From the NCBI RefSeq assembly GCF_000244955.1, contig NZ_CM001439.1, positions 4,955,234 to 5,019,233 on the forward strand: a stretch of 64,000 nucleotides of DNA, given 5' to 3'. The stretch comes from Saccharomonospora marina XMU15. GTDB taxonomy: Bacteria > Actinomycetota > Actinomycetes > Mycobacteriales > Pseudonocardiaceae. The notes beneath the pieces were generated by a model. That model was not told where the DNA came from and ran no database searches. It was given only the letters and a program-made list of their open reading frames with translations. A program made the position numbers and the translations under genes. Position 1 is the stretch's first letter. The number at the start of each line of letters is the position of its first letter. Of this stretch, positions 8,389 to 63,550 are shown one piece after another.

Positions 8389-8415
8389 TCCCGTAGGCGC
8401 CCGGATGCGTTCCGG

Positions 8416-8476
8416 AACGCAGGACTCGCGGGCGAGAGCGCAGGACTCGCGGGCGGGAACGCAGGACTCGCGGGGT
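8416..8476. repeat. 21-bp tandem repeat array A (3 units)
   Basis: Three head-to-tail 21-bp units with core GCAGGACTCGCGGGC (8416-8436, 8437-8457, 8458-8478). The last unit runs into the stop codon of the convergent DUF742 gene. The same unit occurs in three other arrays in this window. It has no internal dyad, so it is not a simple hairpin terminator. Confidence 0.9.
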
Positions 8477-8970
8477 TACAGCGAGCGCAGGCCTTCCAGA
8501 ATCTTCGTCATGAAGTCGTGCGAGGAGCGGTCGGACAACACGAAGCCCGGCTGCTGAACCTGCACGGCCCCGGAGTTCTCGAGGTCGTCCACGATCACCT
8601 TCACCACCCCCAGCGGCAGTCCCGCGAAAGCGGCGATCTCGGCGATCGAATGCACCTCAACGCACAGGTCGCAGATGAATCGCTGCTCGGGTGAGCTGAC
8701 ACCGTGGTACTGCCTGCCGCGTTCGGTGGTAGCCACCAACGCCTCCAGCGCCAGTTCCTTCGCGGGCCGGGTCCGCCCGCCGGTGCGCGCGTAGGGCCGA
8801 ACCAGCGACCGGTGAGTGAACCGTGGCGGGGGCGGGGGCTGCGCGCGGACACGCTTGGTCAGCTGGGCAACGTGCCGGACGCTGCCGAGGTCGAACCTGC
8901 TCGGCGAGTCGAAATGCTCGCGGCCCGTGCCCTTGTTGAGGGCCTCCCACTCGTCCACTGTCCTATCCAC
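8476..8970 (-). CDS. DUF742 protein, extra copy (CvnC-like)
   Basis: Conservon component C with a winged-helix-like DUF742 fold; its exact role is unknown. Of 164 residues, about 60-164 form the domain: [31 protein letters not shown], then [34 protein letters not shown] and a C-terminal [13 protein letters not shown]. Conserved CxLC cysteines are present. GTG 8970 is preceded by an AGGGCGG-like site and overlaps the stop of the upstream Roadblock gene by 8 bases, so the pair is coupled. It repeats the B-C gene order of the main conservon upstream, with no second GTPase following. Confidence 0.88.
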
Positions 8971-20659: not shown

Positions 20660-23242
20660 TCAGTCCGCGCAGTGCTCCCGCCCCCGCCTGACTCCGGTTT
20701 GCAGCCGGGTCATCCTCGCCCGCACGTCCTCGGGTGCGCGGCTGACCCTGGTATGCCGTTGCCCCTCGGCCGAGCGGGCCGCCGTGGAGTTGCTGCCGGG
20801 TCCGGTGCGGAACCACTCCGAAAGCGCGGCCTGGTAGGCGGGCATCCGGTCGGTGGGCGTGTCCTCCTCGAGCGGGTGGCGGTACTCGCCCGGCTGGTCC
20901 CCGTCGTCGACCGGCCACGTTGGCAGGGTGTCGGCATCCGCGGGATCCGGTACCCCGTCGGGCCGGTAGGCGTGTCGCCCCGCTGGTGCCGGTTCGGGCC
21001 GTAGGTGGTCGCCGTACCGCTCGCCCGGCGACCACGACGCCTGCGCTGGTTCCGGCTGCGGCTGTGACTCCGGCTGCGGCGGCGGCAGTGACTCCGGTTG
21101 TGGCTGTGGCTGCGGCTGCGGCTGTGGCTCCGGTTGTGGCTGTGGCTGTGGCTGTGGCACAGGGCGTGGCGGCGGAACCGGCAACGCCTGCGATCGCGCC
21201 GCCCGAGACGGGTGCGGCTGCTGGATCGGTGCGATCGGAGCCGGGTCCACCACGCCGGGCGGCAGCGGCGACATGAACTCCACGAGAGTCGAGGGCACCA
21301 CAACGCTCGCGGTGATACCCCCGCCGTCCGCCGTCGCCAGCCACACCCGGATGCGGTGCCGCTCGGCCAGTCTCGCGACGACGTAGAGCCCCATCCGCCG
21401 CGAGACCTCCACGTCCACAGCGGGTGGTTCCGCCAGCCGCGCATTGGCCCTGCGGATCTCGACCTCCGGCATGCCGGGGCCGCGGTCGGTGATGTCGATG
21501 CGCCACTCGCCGTGCGCGGTCACCGTGCTGACCACGGACACCGGAGCACGCGGACTCGAGTACTCGGTGGCGTTCTCCAGCAACTCCGAGATCACGTGCA
21601 CGACGTCACTCACCGCCTCGCCGTGCACGGCAACGCTCGGCGGTGTCCCCACCTGGATTCGTTGATAGTGCTCGACCTCCGACAGCGCCGCACCGATGAC
21701 CTCGTCCGCGGACACCGACTCCGGCAGTGGCCGCCCCGCGTCCTGCCCCGCGAGCACCAGCAGGTTCTCGCTGTTGCGCCGCATCCTCGTCGCGAGGTGA
21801 TCGAGTTCGAACAGCCCACCGAGAATGTCGGGGTCCTGCTCGTGTTGCTCCATCCGGTCCAGCACCGACAGTTGCCGCTCCACCAGGTCCTGACTGCGCC
21901 GGGACAGGTTCACGAACATCGAGTTGACGTTCTCGCGCAGCAGCGCCTGTTCACCGGCCAGCCGCACCGCCTGCCCGTGCACCGCGTCGAAGGCCCGTGC
22001 GACCTGCCCGAGTTCTTCCCTGGTGAACACCGGGACGGCTTCGATCCTCCTGCTGTAGGTGATCTCGGGGCGTGGGTTGGGATCGGCGAGGATGTCCTGC
22101 ACGGCCTCCGGCAACCGGTACTGTGCCACTTCCAGCGCGCTGGACCGCAGGATTCGCAGCGGCCGCAGCAGCGACCTCGCGATCACCACGGTGAGCAATC
22201 CCGCGGCGAGCAGCACCCCGAGCACGATTCCGGAGTCCTGCACAGCCGAGCGGCGGGCCTGCGCGGCGAGTGCGTCGGAACGCTGCTGGATGCCGATGAG
22301 CAGGTGCTCCTGCACCCGCTTGACCAGGTCCACCGTGGTGGTCGCGGCCTCGTCCCATGCCGAGGCCGACAGTTCGGTGAGCCTCGCTGCTGTCCGCGCG
22401 CTCGCCAGCACGGAGTCGGCCATGTCGTTGGCGGCATCCACTTCCGGACCGAGCACGGTGTCGGCGTAGTCCGCTCGCTGCCCCGCGGTGGCGTACTTCA
22501 GGAACTCCTCGCGGGAGGCTTGCAGCAACGTCGCGGCCTCCAGCAGCGCGCGTTCGGTGTCCTGCGGCACACGGCCCCGCTCGATCGCCTCCGCGACGAG
22601 TGCCCTTCTGACCGACAGTTGCTCCTTGACTCTGGCCAGCGCCCCGGCCGCCAGCCGGGTGCGGACCAGCGTGTCGTCCACCACGTCGGCGGCCGCCTGG
22701 TCGCCCTCGTCGAGTAGCCCGGAGATCAGTTCGCCGTAGGAGTGCGCCACCGCGTCGGAGCCCTGTTCGGAGTGCTGGCCCGCGTAGCGCAGCCCGGTGA
22801 GCACGTCGAGCCGGTCGCGCATCCGCTCGAAACTCGCCGTGGCCCGCGCTGAGATCGACGGACCCGAAGCGACCAGTGTGCGTTCGAACACACCGGCGGC
22901 GGCGTCCACCCGTTCCCGCTGCCGCGACACGTCGCCGATGTCGCCGGTGCGGCCCGCGGCGACGTAGCCGACCGTGAGATCCCGTTCGCGTTGCAGTTCG
23001 TGGACCAGATCGGCGACCGTGCTGTCCACGCGTACGCGCTCGGCGGCTTCGGCGAACCGGTTCGCCCGCTGCAGATCCGCCATGGCCCGCAGGCCGAGTA
23101 GCGCCACCACGGCGAGGGTCGGCACCACCAGTACCACGATCAGCTTGGTACGCAGTCGCCAGTTGCGAAGCCGCCACCGGCCCCCCGCGCGTCGATGCTC
23201 CGCCGCGCCACCAGCAGGGGGACGCTCGCTGCGACGGGTCAC
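20660..23242 (-). CDS. Orphan conservon-type histidine kinase (CvnA-like) with Gln-Pro-rich tail
   Basis: An 860-residue paralogue of the kinase at 11419-14424, with the same layout. TM1 is near 35-55 (LIVVLVVPTLAVVALLGL), followed by the external nitrate-sensor-like domain, TM2 near 335 (SGIVLGVLLAAGLLTVVIA), HAMP-like LLRPLRILRSSALEVAQYRLPE, RENVNSMFVNLSRRSQDLVERQL, and HATPase LLENATEYSSP and DRGPGMPEVEI. The tail holds a Pro-Gln dipeptide repeat of about 40 residues. No Roadblock, DUF742 or GTPase gene adjoins it. It may work with the unpaired Roadblock-DUF742 genes at 8476-9382. GTG start with AAGGAA six bases upstream. Confidence 0.88.
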   Translation of the reverse strand: MTRRSERPPAGGAAEHRRAGGRWRLRNWRLRTKLIVVLVVPTLAVVALLGLRAMADLQRANRFAEAAERVRVDSTVADLVHELQRERDLTVGYVAAGRTGDIGDVSRQRERVDAAAGVFERTLVASGPSISARATASFERMRDRLDVLTGLRYAGQHSEQGSDAVAHSYGELISGLLDEGDQAAADVVDDTLVRTRLAAGALARVKEQLSVRRALVAEAIERGRVPQDTERALLEAATLLQASREEFLKYATAGQRADYADTVLGPEVDAANDMADSVLASARTAARLTELSASAWDEAATTTVDLVKRVQEHLLIGIQQRSDALAAQARRSAVQDSGIVLGVLLAAGLLTVVIARSLLRPLRILRSSALEVAQYRLPEAVQDILADPNPRPEITYSRRIEAVPVFTREELGQVARAFDAVHGQAVRLAGEQALLRENVNSMFVNLSRRSQDLVERQLSVLDRMEQHEQDPDILGGLFELDHLATRMRRNSENLLVLAGQDAGRPLPESVSADEVIGAALSEVEHYQRIQVGTPPSVAVHGEAVSDVVHVISELLENATEYSSPRAPVSVVSTVTAHGEWRIDITDRGPGMPEVEIRRANARLAEPPAVDVEVSRRMGLYVVARLAERHRIRVWLATADGGGITASVVVPSTLVEFMSPLPPGVVDPAPIAPIQQPHPSRAARSQALPVPPPRPVPQPQPQPQPEPQPQPQPQPQPESLPPPQPESQPQPEPAQASWSPGERYGDHLRPEPAPAGRHAYRPDGVPDPADADTLPTWPVDDGDQPGEYRHPLEEDTPTDRMPAYQAALSEWFRTGPGSNSTAARSAEGQRHTRVSRAPEDVRARMTRLQTGVRRGREHCAD

Positions 23243-36470: not shown

Positions 36471-38705
36471 GTGACCGCGCAGCTGACGCTCACCGTCCGC
36501 CACACCCCCTCCGCACTCGACTCCAGACGCGGGGTCGTCCGGCTGCATCGAGAGGTGCTCGACGCGCTGGGGCTGCGCGCCTGGGACGCGGTGCGGCTGA
36601 CCGGCGCCAGGATCAGCGCCGCGCTCGCCGCCCCCTCGCACGACGGCGGTTCTCCGGGCGTGGCGCTGCTGGACGACGTCACCATGGCGAACCTCGGTGT
36701 CACGGAGGGCGCGGAGGTGGTCGTCGCACCGTGTGAGGTGGCGGCTGCCCGCTCGGTCACCGTGTCCGGTTCCCGGCTGGCCAGGCTGTCGCTGAGCGGG
36801 CACACGCTGCGGTTGGCGCTCATCGGCAAGGTCCTCACCGTCGGCGACGCGGTGTCGCTGCTGCCGCAGGACCTCGCCCCGCCGCCAGGCGCTGACACCT
36901 CCGCCGTGCGCGGTCAACTTTCCCGGGCCATCGGCGCCACCTGGACCAGCGAACTGCTCACCGTCACCGGCACCGACCCCGCTGGTCCCGTGGCCGTCGG
37001 GCAGTCCACAGTGGTCAGCTGGCGGGACGAGGTGACGCGGGACGACGGGGCCGACCCGGCCACGCAGCCGCCCGCCGCACGGGCCGAAGCGACACCCACG
37101 GCGGTGGGAGCGCAGCAGGACGCGGCCGAGCAGCCACCGCCACTGGCCGACCTCGCCGGGGCACGGGAAGCGGCGCGGCGCCTTCGCGAGTGGCTCGACC
37201 TGGCCTTCCACCGTCCCGACCTGCTGGCCAGGCTCGGCACCTCGCAGCGGCTCGGCGTGCTGCTGTCCGGACCGGAAGGGGTGGGAAAGGCCACGCTCGT
37301 CCGCGCGGTCGCGCGTGCCGAGGACGTCACGGTCGTGACGCTGGCGGCACCGACGCTTGCCGTGCTGGAGCCCCACGCCGCGGCCGACCGGCTCACCGAA
37401 GCCGTGCGGCGAGCAGAGGCCGCCGAGCCCGCCGCCTTGCTGCTGATCACCGACATCGACGCGGCACTGCCCGCGAGTCAGCCGCCGCCGGTCGCCACGG
37501 TGCTGCTGGAGGAGTTGCGAGCGGCGCTGGGACGTCCCGGCCTCGCGGTGGTGGCCACGAGCGCACACCCGGAGTCGGTGGACCCCCGGCTGCGGTCGCT
37601 GGACCTGCTCGACCGCGAACTGACACTCGCGTTGCCCGACACCGGGACGCGCACCGAACTGCTGCGGATCCTGCTGCGCGACACCCCCGTCGAGCCTGGT
37701 ATCGACCTGGGTGCGGTCGCGGAGAAGGCGCCCGGGTTCGTGGCCGCCGACCTGGTGGCCCTACGGCGCGACGCCGCCCTGCGAGCCGCGCTGCGGCACC
37801 GCGACGGTGAGTCCGACCCTCGTATCCGCCAGCAGGACCTGCTCGACGCGCTCGAATCGGTCCGGCCCATCTCGATGTCCTCATCGGACACCCTGGCCAC
37901 CGGAGGGTTGTCGCTCGACGATGTGGGGGACATGGCGGAGGTCAAGCAGTCGCTGACCGAGACCGTGCTGTGGCCGCTTCGCTATCCCGACTCGTTCGCG
38001 CGACTCGGTGTCGCACCCCCGCGAGGCGTGCTGATCTACGGACCACCCGGTAACGGGAAGACTTTCCTGGTGCGTGCCCTCGCTGGCACCGGCGCGTTGA
38101 ACGTGTTCGCGGTCAAGGGCGCGGAACTGATGGACAAGTGGGTCGGCGAGTCGGAGCGTGCGGTGCGGGAACTGTTCCGCAGAGCTGCCGAGGCGGCGCC
38201 GTCACTGATCTTTCTGGACGAAGTGGACGCGCTCGCGCCCCGCAGGGGGCAGTCCGCGGACTCCGGTGTCGCCGATCGGGTTGTGGCGGCGTTGCTGACC
38301 GAATTGGACGGGGTGGAGCCGGTACGCGACGTCGTCGTGCTCGGGGCGACGAACCGCCCGGAACTGGTCGACCCGGCGCTGCTACGGCCGGGCAGGTTGG
38401 AGCGCCTGGTGTACGTGCCGCCCCCGGACGCTGCCGCGCGCGCGGCCATCCTGCGGGCGAGCGCCAGGAACACCCCGCTTGCCCCGGACGTGGATCTCGG
38501 CCAGCTTGCCTCCACCTTGGACGGCTACTCCGCCGCCGACTGCGCCGCACTGATCCGGGAGGCGGCGCTGACCGCCATGCGGGAGTCGCTGGAAGCGGCG
38601 GAGGTGTCGGCCGCGCACCTGGCGAAGGCGAGGGACGCGGTGCGCCCTTCACTGGACCCGCAGCAACTGGCCACGCTGGAGGCGTACGCCAGTACCCGCC
38701 GCTGA
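36471..38705 (+). CDS. CDC48-like double AAA ATPase (Rv0435c-like) with degenerate first ATPase domain
   Basis: A 744-residue Cdc48/VAT-type ATPase. The N-domain (about 1-190) is double-psi-barrel-like (TLTVRHTPSALDSRRGVVRLH). The D1 domain (about 225-460) has GPEGVGKATL, with Ala where Thr/Ser should follow the Walker Lys, and LLLITDIDAAL, which lacks the Walker B Glu. D2 (about 480-744) is intact: GPPGNGKTFLVRAL, LIFLDEVDALAPRRG, sensor GATNRPELVDPALLRPGRLE. So D2 probably does the work and D1 is structural. It likely unfolds or remodels proteins; substrates are unknown. GTG start after GTGGGGGT. Confidence 0.9.
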   Translation: MTAQLTLTVRHTPSALDSRRGVVRLHREVLDALGLRAWDAVRLTGARISAALAAPSHDGGSPGVALLDDVTMANLGVTEGAEVVVAPCEVAAARSVTVSGSRLARLSLSGHTLRLALIGKVLTVGDAVSLLPQDLAPPPGADTSAVRGQLSRAIGATWTSELLTVTGTDPAGPVAVGQSTVVSWRDEVTRDDGADPATQPPAARAEATPTAVGAQQDAAEQPPPLADLAGAREAARRLREWLDLAFHRPDLLARLGTSQRLGVLLSGPEGVGKATLVRAVARAEDVTVVTLAAPTLAVLEPHAAADRLTEAVRRAEAAEPAALLLITDIDAALPASQPPPVATVLLEELRAALGRPGLAVVATSAHPESVDPRLRSLDLLDRELTLALPDTGTRTELLRILLRDTPVEPGIDLGAVAEKAPGFVAADLVALRRDAALRAALRHRDGESDPRIRQQDLLDALESVRPISMSSSDTLATGGLSLDDVGDMAEVKQSLTETVLWPLRYPDSFARLGVAPPRGVLIYGPPGNGKTFLVRALAGTGALNVFAVKGAELMDKWVGESERAVRELFRRAAEAAPSLIFLDEVDALAPRRGQSADSGVADRVVAALLTELDGVEPVRDVVVLGATNRPELVDPALLRPGRLERLVYVPPPDAAARAAILRASARNTPLAPDVDLGQLASTLDGYSAADCAALIREAALTAMRESLEAAEVSAAHLAKARDAVRPSLDPQQLATLEAYASTRR

Positions 38706-38710
38706 AGCCC

Positions 38711-38809
38711 CGCGAGTCCTGCACTCTCGTCCGCGAGTCCTGCACTCCTGCCCGCGAGTCCTGCGTTCTTGTCCGCGAGTCCTGCACTCCTGCCCGCGAG
38801 TTCCGCGTT
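38711..38809. repeat. 21-bp tandem repeat array B (4 units plus partial)
   Basis: Reverse-orientation copies of the window's 21-bp unit, seen on this strand as CGCGAGTCCTGC followed by a variable 9-mer: 38711-38731, 38732-38752, 38753-38773, 38774-38794 and a decayed unit to 38809. It starts 6 bases after the AAA ATPase stop and lies between that gene and the convergent LytR_C gene. Confidence 0.9.
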
Positions 38810-46021: not shown

Positions 46022-46063
46022 CGGGGCAGCAGCGGACCGGGACGCGTGCGCGACACTGTGCGG

Positions 46064-46936
46064 ATGACCGAGCAGCGACCTCCGGCCGCGTTGACCATCG
46101 CCGGCTCCGATTCCGGCGGCGCGGCCGGGTTGCAGGCCGACCTGCGCACGTTTCTCACCTGCGGGGTGCACGGACTGGTCGCGGTGACGGCGGTGACCGT
46201 GCAGAACACGCTCGGCGTGCACGCGCGCAGCGACATCGAAGCGGACATCGTCGCGGGCCAGATCGAGGCGGTCACCTCCGACATGGGCGCGCAGGCAGCG
46301 AAGACGGGGATGCTTGCCCGCGGCGAGACCATCACCTCGGTACGGCGAGCGTGTGAGAAGGCGGGCATCGGGCGGGCAGCGGCGATCCCGTTCGTGGTCG
46401 ATCCGGTGGCGGCTTCCATGCACGGGCACCCGCTTTTCGACGCCGAGGGCCTGGCCGCGTTGCGGGAGGAGTTGCTACCGATGGCGACCGTGCTGACCCC
46501 CAACCTCGACGAGGTGCGGCTGCTGACCGGAAAAGCCGTGACCGATCGCGACTCGATGCGGGCCGCCGCGGCGGCGCTGCATGCGATGGGGCCGGAGTAC
46601 GTACTTGTGAAGGGCGGTCATCTGGAGGACGACCCGGAGTGCGTCGACCTGCTGTACGACGGTCTGACCTACACCGAGTTGCGAGGGCCCCGGTTCGACA
46701 CCCGGCACACGCACGGCGCGGGCGATGCGATGGCCGCGGCGTTGACCGCGGGCTTGGCGCGCGGAATGGCGGTTCCACAGGCCGTGCGATACGCGAAGTG
46801 GTACGTCAGCAACGCCGTTCGGCACTCCTATCCCATGGGTGCCGAGGTGGGCCCGGTCTCGGCCTTCTGGCGGCTCGCCCCCGAGTCGGGTCCGGAAGGC
46901 GAGGGCCCGATCGCGGGGCGAGAACCCGGACACTGA
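46064..46936 (+). CDS. thiD: Hydroxymethylpyrimidine/phosphomethylpyrimidine kinase ThiD (copy 2)
   Basis: Second ThiD-type kinase, 290 residues: ALTIAGSDSGGAAGLQADLRTFLTCGVHG, AQAAKTGMLARG, VVDPVAASMHGHPLF, TPNLDEVRLLTG and the anion hole HTHGAGDAMAAA. It is close in sequence to copy 1, suggesting duplication with the PstS-like gene in between. It has no riboswitch of its own and lies 42 bases after that gene, so it may serve salvage or another pyrimidine. ATG 46064 is chosen; an in-frame GTG 18 bases earlier is possible. Confidence 0.92.
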   Translation: MTEQRPPAALTIAGSDSGGAAGLQADLRTFLTCGVHGLVAVTAVTVQNTLGVHARSDIEADIVAGQIEAVTSDMGAQAAKTGMLARGETITSVRRACEKAGIGRAAAIPFVVDPVAASMHGHPLFDAEGLAALREELLPMATVLTPNLDEVRLLTGKAVTDRDSMRAAAAALHAMGPEYVLVKGGHLEDDPECVDLLYDGLTYTELRGPRFDTRHTHGAGDAMAAALTAGLARGMAVPQAVRYAKWYVSNAVRHSYPMGAEVGPVSAFWRLAPESGPEGEGPIAGREPGH

Positions 46937-46948
46937 GCGACGGACGGC

Positions 46949-47074
46949 AGCGCAGGACTCGCGGGCGGGAGCGGGGGACTCGCCGACAGGAACGCAGGAC
47001 TCGCCGACAGGAACGCAGGACTCGCCGACAGGAACGCAGGACTCGCGGACGGCAGCGGGGGACTCGCGGGTTGG
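46949..47074. repeat. 21-bp tandem repeat array C (6 units)
   Basis: The largest array: six contiguous 21-bp units at 46949-47074. Unit core is GCAGGACTCGC or GGGGGACTCGC followed by a variable half (GGGCGGG or CGACAGG). Two middle units (46991-47011, 47012-47032) are identical, a sign of recent expansion. It lies exactly between thiD copy 2 and the convergent MarR gene, ending 5 bases before the MarR stop. Confidence 0.93.
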
Positions 47075-47078
47075 GTGT

Positions 47079-47510
47079 TCACGACTCTTCATCGGTGAGC
47101 AGCGCCTCCAGCGCGGGAAGCGCCGCGGTCAGCGCTTCCCGATGCTCGGGTGAAAGCCGGGCGATGCGCCGGTCAAGCTCTTCGATCCGGGTCGAGCGCA
47201 CCCCGGACAGCAAGCGCTCGCCCTCGGGGGTCACGGTCGCCAGCCACGCCCTGCGGTCGGCCGGGTCGGACTCCCTGCGCACGTACCCGGCCTCGACGAG
47301 CGCGGCGACGATGCGCGACATCGTGGCCGCGGCCACGCCCTCCTTGGCAGCCAGATCACCGAGCCGCAACTGGCCGTAGGCGGCGAGCGTGGCCAGCGCC
47401 GAGATCGCACCGTGTCCGGGGCCCGGCGCACCGGCCTGCCGCAGCGAGCGCGACAGCCTGCCGATGGCGAGGAAAAGCCTGCCGGGTACGTCCTGTGACG
47501 ACGCGGTCAC
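47079..47510 (-). CDS. MarR family transcriptional regulator
   Basis: A 143-residue winged-helix repressor: GRLFLAIGRLSRSLRQ, then LATLAAYGQLRLGDLAAKEGVAAATMSRIVAALVEAGYVRRESDPADRRAWLATVTPEGERLL with the recognition helix and the DxRxx wing. GTG 47510 has AAGGAG six bases upstream; a longer frame to 47600 is less likely. Its target is unknown; the nearest gene it might share a promoter region with is the end of thiG, so it may regulate itself or a distant gene. Confidence 0.9.
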   Translation of the reverse strand: MTASSQDVPGRLFLAIGRLSRSLRQAGAPGPGHGAISALATLAAYGQLRLGDLAAKEGVAAATMSRIVAALVEAGYVRRESDPADRRAWLATVTPEGERLLSGVRSTRIEELDRRIARLSPEHREALTAALPALEALLTDEES

Positions 47511-47609: not shown

Positions 47610-49698
<2,089 letters not shown>

Positions 49699-49703
49699 GA
49701 GAT

Positions 49704-49788
49704 CACGCTCCCTGCGCCGGCATGACCCGGATCAGGTTCCACGGTCGGAGCGGCGGCTCCCTCTCAGCCCGTGCCTCGGGCTCCCGTG
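49704..49788 (-). promoter_or_regulatory. TPP riboswitch of thiO-thiS-thiG
   Basis: On the reverse strand: CACG opening stem (49785-49788), CACGGGCTGAGAGGGAG, CCGTGGAACCTGATCCGGG, TCATGCCGGCGCAGGGAG, closing CGTG (49704-49707). This is the canonical thi box. The AGGGAG (49708-49713) lies 9 bases before the thiO ATG and inside the structure, so TPP should block ribosome entry. Confidence 0.96.
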
Positions 49789-49815
49789 CGGACGTCACCA
49801 CCGTACAGTGATCCC

Positions 49816-62649: not shown

Positions 62650-63216
62650 CTACTTCGCGGCCTTGGCCGCCTTCTTGAACTCCCGGACCTTCGCGAGCGT
62701 CTCGGCGTCGGTGACGTCGGCGATCGAGCGGTGCGAGTCCGCTTCGCCGTAGGAGCCGGCCGCCTCGCGCCAGCCTGCCGGGCGCACGCCCAGCTGCTTA
62801 CCGAGCAGGGCGAGGAAGATGCGCGCCTTCTGGTCGCCGAATCCGGGCAGCGACTTCAGCCGCTTCAGCACCTCGGCGCCGTCCGGGTCGCCTTCCCGCC
62901 AGATCCGCTCCGCCGCTCCGTCGTAGTTGTCCACGACATAGCGTGCCAGCGTGTGCACGCGGCGAGCCATCGATGCGCCGTATCGGTGAATCGCGGGCTT
63001 GCGCACGCACAGCTCCACGAACTCGTCCTCGTCCGACTCTGCGATCTTGGTGACGCTGAAGCCAGCCATCCGGTCGGCGATCTTTCTCGGCCCCGCGAAC
63101 GCCACTTCCATGGCTATCTGCTGGTCCAACAGCATTCCGGTGAGCAGCGCGAACGGGTCCCGCGACAGCAACTCGTCGGTTTCCGCGTCCCCGGTCAGTC
63201 GAAGCGTGGCTGGCAT
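62650..63216 (-). CDS. HhH-GPD type base-excision DNA repair protein
   Basis: A 188-residue protein of the HhH-GPD DNA glycosylase superfamily. PFALLTGMLLDQQIAMEVAFAGPRKIADRM matches the family N-terminal half. The helix-hairpin-helix is LKSLPGFGDQKARIFLALLGKQ; the end is Lys/Ala-rich (EFKKAAKAAK). The classical catalytic Asp position is not obvious, so glycosylase activity is uncertain. The ATG lies 20 bases from a 21-bp repeat array that would sit in its promoter or leader. An open frame runs on through the repeats but is not a real extension. Confidence 0.85.
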   Translation of the reverse strand: MPATLRLTGDAETDELLSRDPFALLTGMLLDQQIAMEVAFAGPRKIADRMAGFSVTKIAESDEDEFVELCVRKPAIHRYGASMARRVHTLARYVVDNYDGAAERIWREGDPDGAEVLKRLKSLPGFGDQKARIFLALLGKQLGVRPAGWREAAGSYGEADSHRSIADVTDAETLAKVREFKKAAKAAK

Positions 63217-63235
63217 GGCGTTATCGTCCCACGTC

Positions 63236-63355
63236 CGCGAGTCCCCCGCTCTCGCCCGCGAGTCCTGCGCTCCCGTCCGCGAGTCCCCTGCTCTCGCCCG
63301 CGAGTCCTGCGCTCCCGTCCGCGAGTCCTGCGCTCCCGTCCGCGAGTTCGGCGCG
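63236..63355. repeat. 21-bp tandem repeat array D (5 units plus partial)
   Basis: Five 21-bp units in the same orientation as array B: 63236-63256, 63257-63277, 63278-63298, 63299-63319, 63320-63340, then a decayed sixth. Units 2, 4 and 5 are identical (CGCGAGTCCTGC then GCTCCCGTC). Unlike the other arrays it lies between two same-strand genes, downstream of the AraC remnant and just upstream of the HhH-GPD gene. Confidence 0.92.
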
Positions 63356-63364
63356 GGTGAAGCG

Positions 63365-63550
63365 CTACCGGTACTGCGCCGGGCTGAGCCCGGTGTGCCT
63401 GCGCAGCTGGACACGCAGGTTCGACGCGGAACCGAGCCCGCTGACGCGCGCCACCACCTCCAGCCGCCGCTCACCGCGCTCGATGAGAGTGCACGCCAGC
63501 GCGATCCGCTCTGCGGCGAGCCACCGCAGCGGTGTGGTGCCCGACTCTGG
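63365..63550 (-). pseudogene. Remnant of an AraC/GlxA-type regulator (C-terminal HTH only)
   Basis: About 60 codons ending at a TAG (63365-63367) encode only the second half of an AraC DNA-binding domain: TTPLRWLAAERIALACTLIERG, RLEVVARVSGLGSASNLRVQLRRHTGLSPAQYR. The text is most like GlxA-family regulators, whose N-terminal DJ-1/PfpI-like domain should precede it. Upstream, this frame runs into the end of the DinB gene with no plausible start codon or ribosome-binding site. It therefore looks like a truncated gene, possibly cut during insertion or expansion of the adjacent repeat. Confidence 0.7.

Follow-up and report, generated by a model that had tools for sequence, protein, structure and literature searches.

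What are short tandem repeats doing directly behind the stop codons of genes? The question is raised by a stretch of 64,000 nucleotides of the Saccharomonospora marina XMU15 genome (the window, C1:4955234-5019233 of a single contig of 5,965,593 bases), in which a sequence-only reading had noticed four arrays of a 21-bp unit, each of three to six units and in both orientations, and had offered a barrier to colliding transcription, a protein-binding array with a nucleoid or replication role, or a mobile minisatellite as possible explanations. Here we describe the family to which these arrays belong. Most arrays hold a defined position and polarity relative to a gene's stop codon; in addition, they are regularly phased, their units come in a set order, they are conserved in place, and the convergent gene gaps that contain them lack hairpins. 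Our leading proposal, tentative and somewhat short of probable, is that the arrays may be modular, strand-specific signals at gene 3' ends that would do the work of intrinsic terminators by way of a factor, such as one of the Rho type.

Four arrays in the window

The four arrays, their unit numbers and their mixed orientation were recovered both by Tandem Repeats Finder, which reports a period of 21 at 8415-8474, 38709-38801, 46951-47069 and 63232-63354, and by core matching. In the sense reading used here, which is the strand opposite to that of the core first proposed, array 1 has three cores on the minus strand (8419-8473) and starts 2 nt past the TAA of a minus-strand DUF742 gene (8476-8958). 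Array 2, with five cores on the plus strand (38710-38806), starts 4 nt past the TGA of a plus-strand gene for a CDC48-type AAA ATPase with CDC48_N (36471-38705), and array 3, with six cores on the minus strand (46952-47069), starts 9 nt past the TGA of a minus-strand MarR-family gene (47079-47510), its far end being 15 nt from the stop codon of a phosphomethylpyrimidine kinase gene (46046-46936). That three of the four arrays lie between convergent genes with stop codons close by, as had been claimed, agrees with our gene calls. Array 4, with six cores on the plus strand (63235-63352), is the exception: no stop codon precedes its sense start within 40 nt, and it lies 5' of a minus-strand gene (62650-63216) without a called convergent partner. 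Beside it, on the minus strand at 63365-63550, is a sequence, perhaps a remnant, that by eye we take to resemble the C-terminus of an AraC-type regulator and that belongs to no complete gene.

The repeat arrays match no RNA family at the Rfam gathering threshold; the sole match in the window is a TPP riboswitch (49692-49797, minus strand), which marks the 5' end of the called gene 48580-49698 on the same strand. The window also holds an imperfect GGCTGC/GGCTGT tandem repeat (21053-21158) within the called minus-strand gene 20660-23242.

A genome-wide family with ordered units

In sense reading the unit consists of CCGCGAGTYCYSC and an 8-nt spacer, 21 nt in all. The core of the sequence-only reading needed revision: the part that varies least is CGCGAGT, read on the opposite strand, and the spacer is variable. 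With at most one mismatch the core occurs 142 times in the 5.97-Mb genome, against 2 occurrences of the reversed pattern; exact copies of GCAGRACTCGCGGGC number 94, and core pairs at 21 bp with at most two mismatches number 386, against 4 in the reversed control.

Arrays were analysed in a sample totalling 2.0 Mb, made up of 80 systematically spaced stretches of 20 kb and of 400 kb surrounding the window, and in a target set of 40 stretches around known arrays; the latter, picked for holding arrays, served only for the counts of polarity, array pairs, unit order, folding, composition and G-quadruplexes and for the ortholog comparison. Genes were called with a simple codon-model gene caller, which missed some. 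Sample and target together gave 113 arrays of at least two cores, 49 of them in the sample (47 by an earlier weight-matrix count), and extrapolation of these 49 in 2.0 Mb implies roughly 140-150 arrays genome-wide.

Simple homogenisation of the units had been suggested because some are identical and does not hold, the first and last units being consistently different. Of the 113 arrays, 93 have a first, stop-proximal core ending in CCCCC and none has a last core with that ending; TCTGC closes the last core of 45 of the 113 and no first core. This order argues against free homogenisation. Over the loci of all named relatives TTCTGC is the commonest last-core ending (40), and the common core in Prauserella muralis is CCGCGAGTCCTGC. 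The repeat layout is not that of a CRISPR array, in which long, unique spacers would separate identical repeats next to cas genes, since the 8-nt spacers recur within an array.

Position and strand relative to stop codons

Arrays are concentrated at convergent gene ends: among intergenic gaps of at least 60 bp, 23 of 114 convergent gaps hold one, compared with 14 of 483 codirectional gaps (Fisher p 2e-9), and 3 of 257 divergent gaps do so. Neighbouring arrays no more than 3 kb apart form 23 pairs: 18 are facing, 4 and 1 are tandem, and none stand back to back. Ten facing pairs less than 400 bp apart have inner gaps of 42-84 bp; both genes of a convergent pair can thus have an array of their own. 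We also considered facing arrays as the two ends of one mobile cassette and rejected this, the inner sequences being mostly unrelated by eye, with the exception of one duplicated pair. Two facing arrays at C1:896001-897136 enclose a DUF559 gene together with two DnaA-box-like TTRTCCACA sites; at the orthologous gene ends there are arrays in P. muralis (both) and in Amycolatopsis thermalba (one).

The relation to the stop codon was scored by asking for a coding-supported stop codon from -4 to 12 nt of the sense start, and likewise on the other strand for the far end. A stop stands at the sense start in 69 of 113 arrays and at the far end in 14 (58 arrays have one at the sense start alone, 11 at both ends, 3 at the far end alone and 41 at neither; binomial p 3e-14), and the sample by itself gives the same picture (27, 4, 3 and 15, n=49; p 8e-6). 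When the limit is widened to 40 nt, the counts become 54 at the sense start only, 28 at both ends, 8 at the far end only and 23 at neither. The commonest position of the sense start is 0-6 nt past the stop (48 of 113 arrays). To describe the arrays as placed between genes, as had been done, is too weak, in that many are tied, by strand and to within a few nucleotides, to the stop codon of one gene. The same tie of strand and stop codon points to a signal at the gene's 3' end rather than to a generic collision barrier.

A similar tie is found in named relatives. Among 111 arrays at their loci, an upstream gene on the sense strand was called for 58, of which 42 begin between -3 and 10 nt from the stop of that gene; for the remaining 53 the gene call is missing, overlapping or in the opposite direction, and several of them show a stop by eye. 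Judged with the codon model of the window genome and on short stretches, a coding-supported stop lies within 12 nt in only 4 of 16 core groups of distant genomes, and in genome G020 in one of six stretches (at 2 nt), with another at 14 nt; these low counts may speak against a role as terminators. Single cores at array-less gene ends show no sense enrichment (3 in sense and 5 in antisense orientation over the initial 20 nt at 1658 ends), which rules out the single core as a general post-stop motif.

Several arrays count against a role as terminators. No coding-supported stop lies within 12 nt of either end in the 41 arrays mentioned, array 4 included. The sample contains 18 codirectional arrays, of which 11 read in the same direction as their called neighbours and 7 in the opposite one, and the antisense ones speak against termination, one of the 7 lying directly behind the coding-supported stop of an uncalled sense frame. 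Placement is not random with respect to genes, as only 2 of 47 sampled arrays fall within gene calls, where they form C-terminal tails; these two likewise weigh against termination. The two, at C1:5048453-5048515 and 5063381-5063443, lie near the 3' ends of the called genes, and a reading of the called frame by hand gives tails that repeat RESPAPA or RESPVPA.

Missing hairpins and C-rich RNA

The earlier statement that the unit has no internal dyad is supported by folding: over the first 60 arrays with three or more cores, folding of the sense RNA is no stronger than that of shuffled sequence (mean z -0.19, and -0.77 for the antisense strand), which rules out a stem-loop inside the array. As a group, the arrays do not have the stable GC-rich stem-loop after the gene that marks an intrinsic terminator. 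Pairing arm to arm is possible between facing arrays, a minority case (18 pairs among 113 arrays).

The gaps around the arrays are also poor in hairpins. Among convergent gaps of 60-400 bp, the excess of the best hairpin over shuffles has a median of +0.5 kcal/mol in array-bearing gaps (n=19), only 2 of which fall below -4 kcal/mol, compared with -9.1 kcal/mol in array-less gaps (n=68; p 5e-5) and -12.4 in length-matched array-less gaps (n=23; p 9e-6), the median lengths being about equal (121 and 118) and the array by itself filling most of a short gap and leaving little room for a hairpin. Array and hairpin behave at convergent ends as if they were alternatives. Hairpins at array-less orthologous ends were dropped as proof of replacement, being clear in only 3 of the 8 ends tested, and this count too weighs against termination.

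The sense RNA is rich in C (45%, with 28% G), and C exceeds G by a median of 17 per 78 nt in arrays compared with 3 in controls, an excess shared by the window genome and three named relatives. PMC6407284 gives as the rule for RUT sites an excess of C over G with regularly spaced C over about 78 nt; in the simplified form used here after that source (C>G, C every 11-13 nt), it is satisfied by 63% of 105 arrays, compared with 16% of convergent ends (n=156), 12% of codirectional ends (n=400) and 17% of coding windows (n=556). This agreement with the composition of Rho-dependent terminators is not general: in G020 the excess of C is almost absent (0.41 vs 0.37), while core and spacing are retained, which a preference of Rho alone does not predict. 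A G-quadruplex on the G-rich strand was rejected as the conserved feature: the window genome has the canonical motif in 60 of its 113 arrays, and P. muralis loci have it in 0 of 48.

A possible route to termination

Strand bias, the start at the stop codon, the missing hairpins and the unstructured, C-rich RNA fit a factor-dependent terminator that acts on RNA. In the mechanism that we propose, the ribosome would stop at the stop codon and leave behind RNA carrying repeated CCGCGAGUYC motifs, rich in C and without stable structure; a factor would load on this ribosome-free RNA, and RNA polymerase would be released in the array or just past it. Each member of a convergent gene pair could carry its own array, so that the arrays come to face each other. 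Rho is the obvious candidate for this factor, working through the RNA-binding extension of its actinobacterial form or together with a motif-specific helper. A 760-aa open frame in the window genome matches Rho above the cut-off, and an RNA-binding N-terminal extension is reported for Rho of M. tuberculosis and stated to be common to all actinobacterial Rho (PMC4167861). From the sequence we infer that transcription would end at the arrays, that a factor would be needed, that it could be Rho and that it would act on RNA.

The constant, G-containing core and the 21-nt phase that persists while spacers vary, most clearly in G020, point to a specific reader of the motif, which could be the Rho extension, a helper or a roadblock bound to DNA.

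Spacing across genomes and a possible DNA-bound roadblock

In the sister species exact matches to the core GCAGRACTCGCGGGC number 98, and among the other 58 relatives searched it occurs once each in 6 and in none of the remaining 52. At least one pair match is present in 219 of 390 family genomes, mostly as one to a few, and such low counts may reflect coding sequence or chance; 20 or more pair matches are found in 19 genomes belonging to 10 genera. The triple-unit pattern returned 107 stretches from the genome collection, and the 80 listed are presumably all from Pseudonocardiaceae (the family was checked for three species) except two records, one from Streptomyces and one from Gemmatimonadetes, both inside gene calls.

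The foremost alternative to action on RNA, which we consider unlikely, is a polar roadblock on DNA: a protein bound to CGCGAGT cores that recur on the same side of the helix after every second turn would stop RNA polymerase from one side only, as TTF-I does at rDNA terminators. The polarity of the arrays and the missing hairpins would suit this arrangement as well, and the spacing speaks for it. The spacer-free pattern RACTCGCG-N12-GRACTCGCG, with its 21-bp period, is present in 32 of 110 family genomes, at about 200-302 copies in six, compared with 4 of 110 genomes, once each, when the same cores are set at 24 bp; the reversed control gives 0-1 in nearly all genomes (26 in G302, 7 in G015 and 3 in G301). 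In six short stretches of G020 the spacers of neighbouring units are mostly different, one array having a higher-order repeat, and the spacings are nevertheless 21 or whole multiples of it, one lone core apart. In the named relatives 21 is likewise by far the commonest spacing (115 of 123, 141 of 146, 72 of 74, 30 of 30 and 8 of 10). Phasing this exact, kept while the spacers vary, is more suggestive of binding to DNA and counts against a reading at the level of RNA. Against the roadblock stand spacings of 22-23 in genome G100 and a binding protein that is only hypothetical. Above all, where an array starts 0-6 nt past the stop, a polymerase halted at the first unit would presumably still have its active centre inside the gene and would stop before the stop codon is transcribed; for this reason we favour action on RNA.

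Factor-dependent termination of this kind may moreover be specific to this lineage. It is possible, and we hold this less firmly than the general proposal, that the arrays are sequence-directed terminators in which CGCGAGT at 21 bp would be served by a dedicated factor and would replace hairpins at a sizeable share of convergent ends in several genera of Pseudonocardiaceae.

Inheritance, copy number and mobility

A different explanation is that the arrays are a selfish or neutral minisatellite, whose units would spread and expand by slippage and recombination and would be tolerated at gene ends. The patchy distribution over genera and the many arrays that break the stop-codon rule would be expected of such an element, as would a changing copy number: as the sequence-only reading had anticipated, unit counts vary, differing between species at 8 of 11 orthologous arrays. 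These come from a comparison over 400 kb with one other species of the genus, in which the twelve longest aligned blocks are 88-93% identical and 11 of 12 arrays are kept in position and orientation; for 10 of them this follows from flanks that align on either side, and for the eleventh from the left flank and the order. In the sister species the remaining array is shorter by two units (42 bp), which put it under the threshold of two units.

Support for mobility itself is limited. A composite of two facing arrays occurs at C1:1372086-1372353 and at 1697422-1697711, 86% identical over 259 bp, with a middle of 73-74 bp between the arrays and unrelated flanks, so the element was copied as a unit at least once. 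The mobile minisatellite suggested at the outset finds limited support in this one composite, against 11 of 12 arrays inherited in place. An integrase-like gene, recognised by eye, lies beside the copy at 1697422-1697711.

Gene ends with arrays are also shared across genera, which speaks against the minisatellite. Of 50 array-bearing genes from loci of Prauserella, Qaidamihabitans and A. thermalba, 20 have a qualifying ortholog in the stretches of the window genome, and 9 of the 20 orthologs (8 distinct gene ends) also carry an array. In target stretches the ortholog has an array for 8 of 11 array-bearing genes vs 1 of 41 array-less genes, and in sample stretches for 1 of 9 vs 2 of 83. Spacers change between species and CGCGAGT stays constant; this constancy of core and spacing between genera, together with the strand bias relative to the stop and the fixed order of first and last units, tells against a minisatellite, and we regard that explanation as doubtful.

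Arrays are themselves interrupted by an insertion sequence. Both full-length copies of an element that we take from its sequence to be IS30-like (L274, C1:1338409-1339589, and L294, 3503284-3504464) lie inside an array unit, at the same unit position as read from the junctions, and six partial matches lie elsewhere in the genome. The array groups at 1339846 and at 3502952/3503027, which have no adjacent stop, are parts of arrays split by this element. The element may target the repeat, and in inserting into array units it appears to behave as insertion sequences do in REPs, which IS1397 targets.

Relation to known systems and significance

Gyrase binding has been proposed for the BIMEs of E. 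coli, and a topological or nucleoid site between converging polymerases, for example for gyrase, would account for the convergent enrichment and the two-turn phasing; it would leave unexplained the sense polarity, the adjacency to stop codons, the arrays at codirectional ends and the single array per gene in facing pairs, and we judge it very unlikely. The replication role once suggested finds no support beyond the two-turn spacing. Least probable of all is an element acting on translation, as E. coli REPs within 15 nt of the stop are reported to act on the terminating ribosome (PMC12306157): the distance from the stop codon fits, but the sense RNA has no stable structure to stall a ribosome and many units would lie beyond its reach.

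The arrays are like the REP/BIME elements of E. coli in being many short, dispersed, intergenic 3'-end repeats, some within 15 nt of the stop (PMC12306157). Unlike REPs, which are palindromes, the units here have no stem and the sense RNA is unstructured, and the arrays differ from REP/BIME elements in their tandem layout, with a 21-bp period and a set order of first and last unit. The MIRUs of mycobacteria, a related actinobacterial group, are dispersed tandem repeats that are polar to the gene, variable in copy number and next to stop codons, as the arrays are; MIRU units, however, measure 46-101 bp and are often found inside operons where a stop and a start codon overlap, whereas the unit here is 21 bp and convergent ends are preferred. 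With rut sites the arrays share an excess of C over G in unstructured, ribosome-free RNA after the stop, but the fixed motif at a fixed 21-nt spacing, which we know of in no rut site, and the near loss of the C excess in G020 set them apart. Iterons, to which a replication initiator binds, are direct repeats at about two helical turns, and the TTF-I boxes of rDNA are orientation-dependent terminators; the arrays resemble them as direct repeats, and iterons in spacing too, and differ in having no known Rep or TTF-I-like factor and roughly 140-150 scattered sites. Literature searches, mostly without full texts, found no description of the repeat family. The arrays resemble known dispersed 3'-end repeats and are possibly a new class of terminator.

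Transcription ending in GC-rich actinobacteria is poorly understood, and to our knowledge Rho sites in these organisms have no recognisable signature. Should the arrays not be terminators, they would still stand out as repeats that are tied to stop codons in both position and strand. If the proposal is right, they would provide a searchable and countable signature of termination in a family that makes many antibiotics, together with ready-made terminator parts and a factor that could be found by phylogenetic profiling and pull-down.
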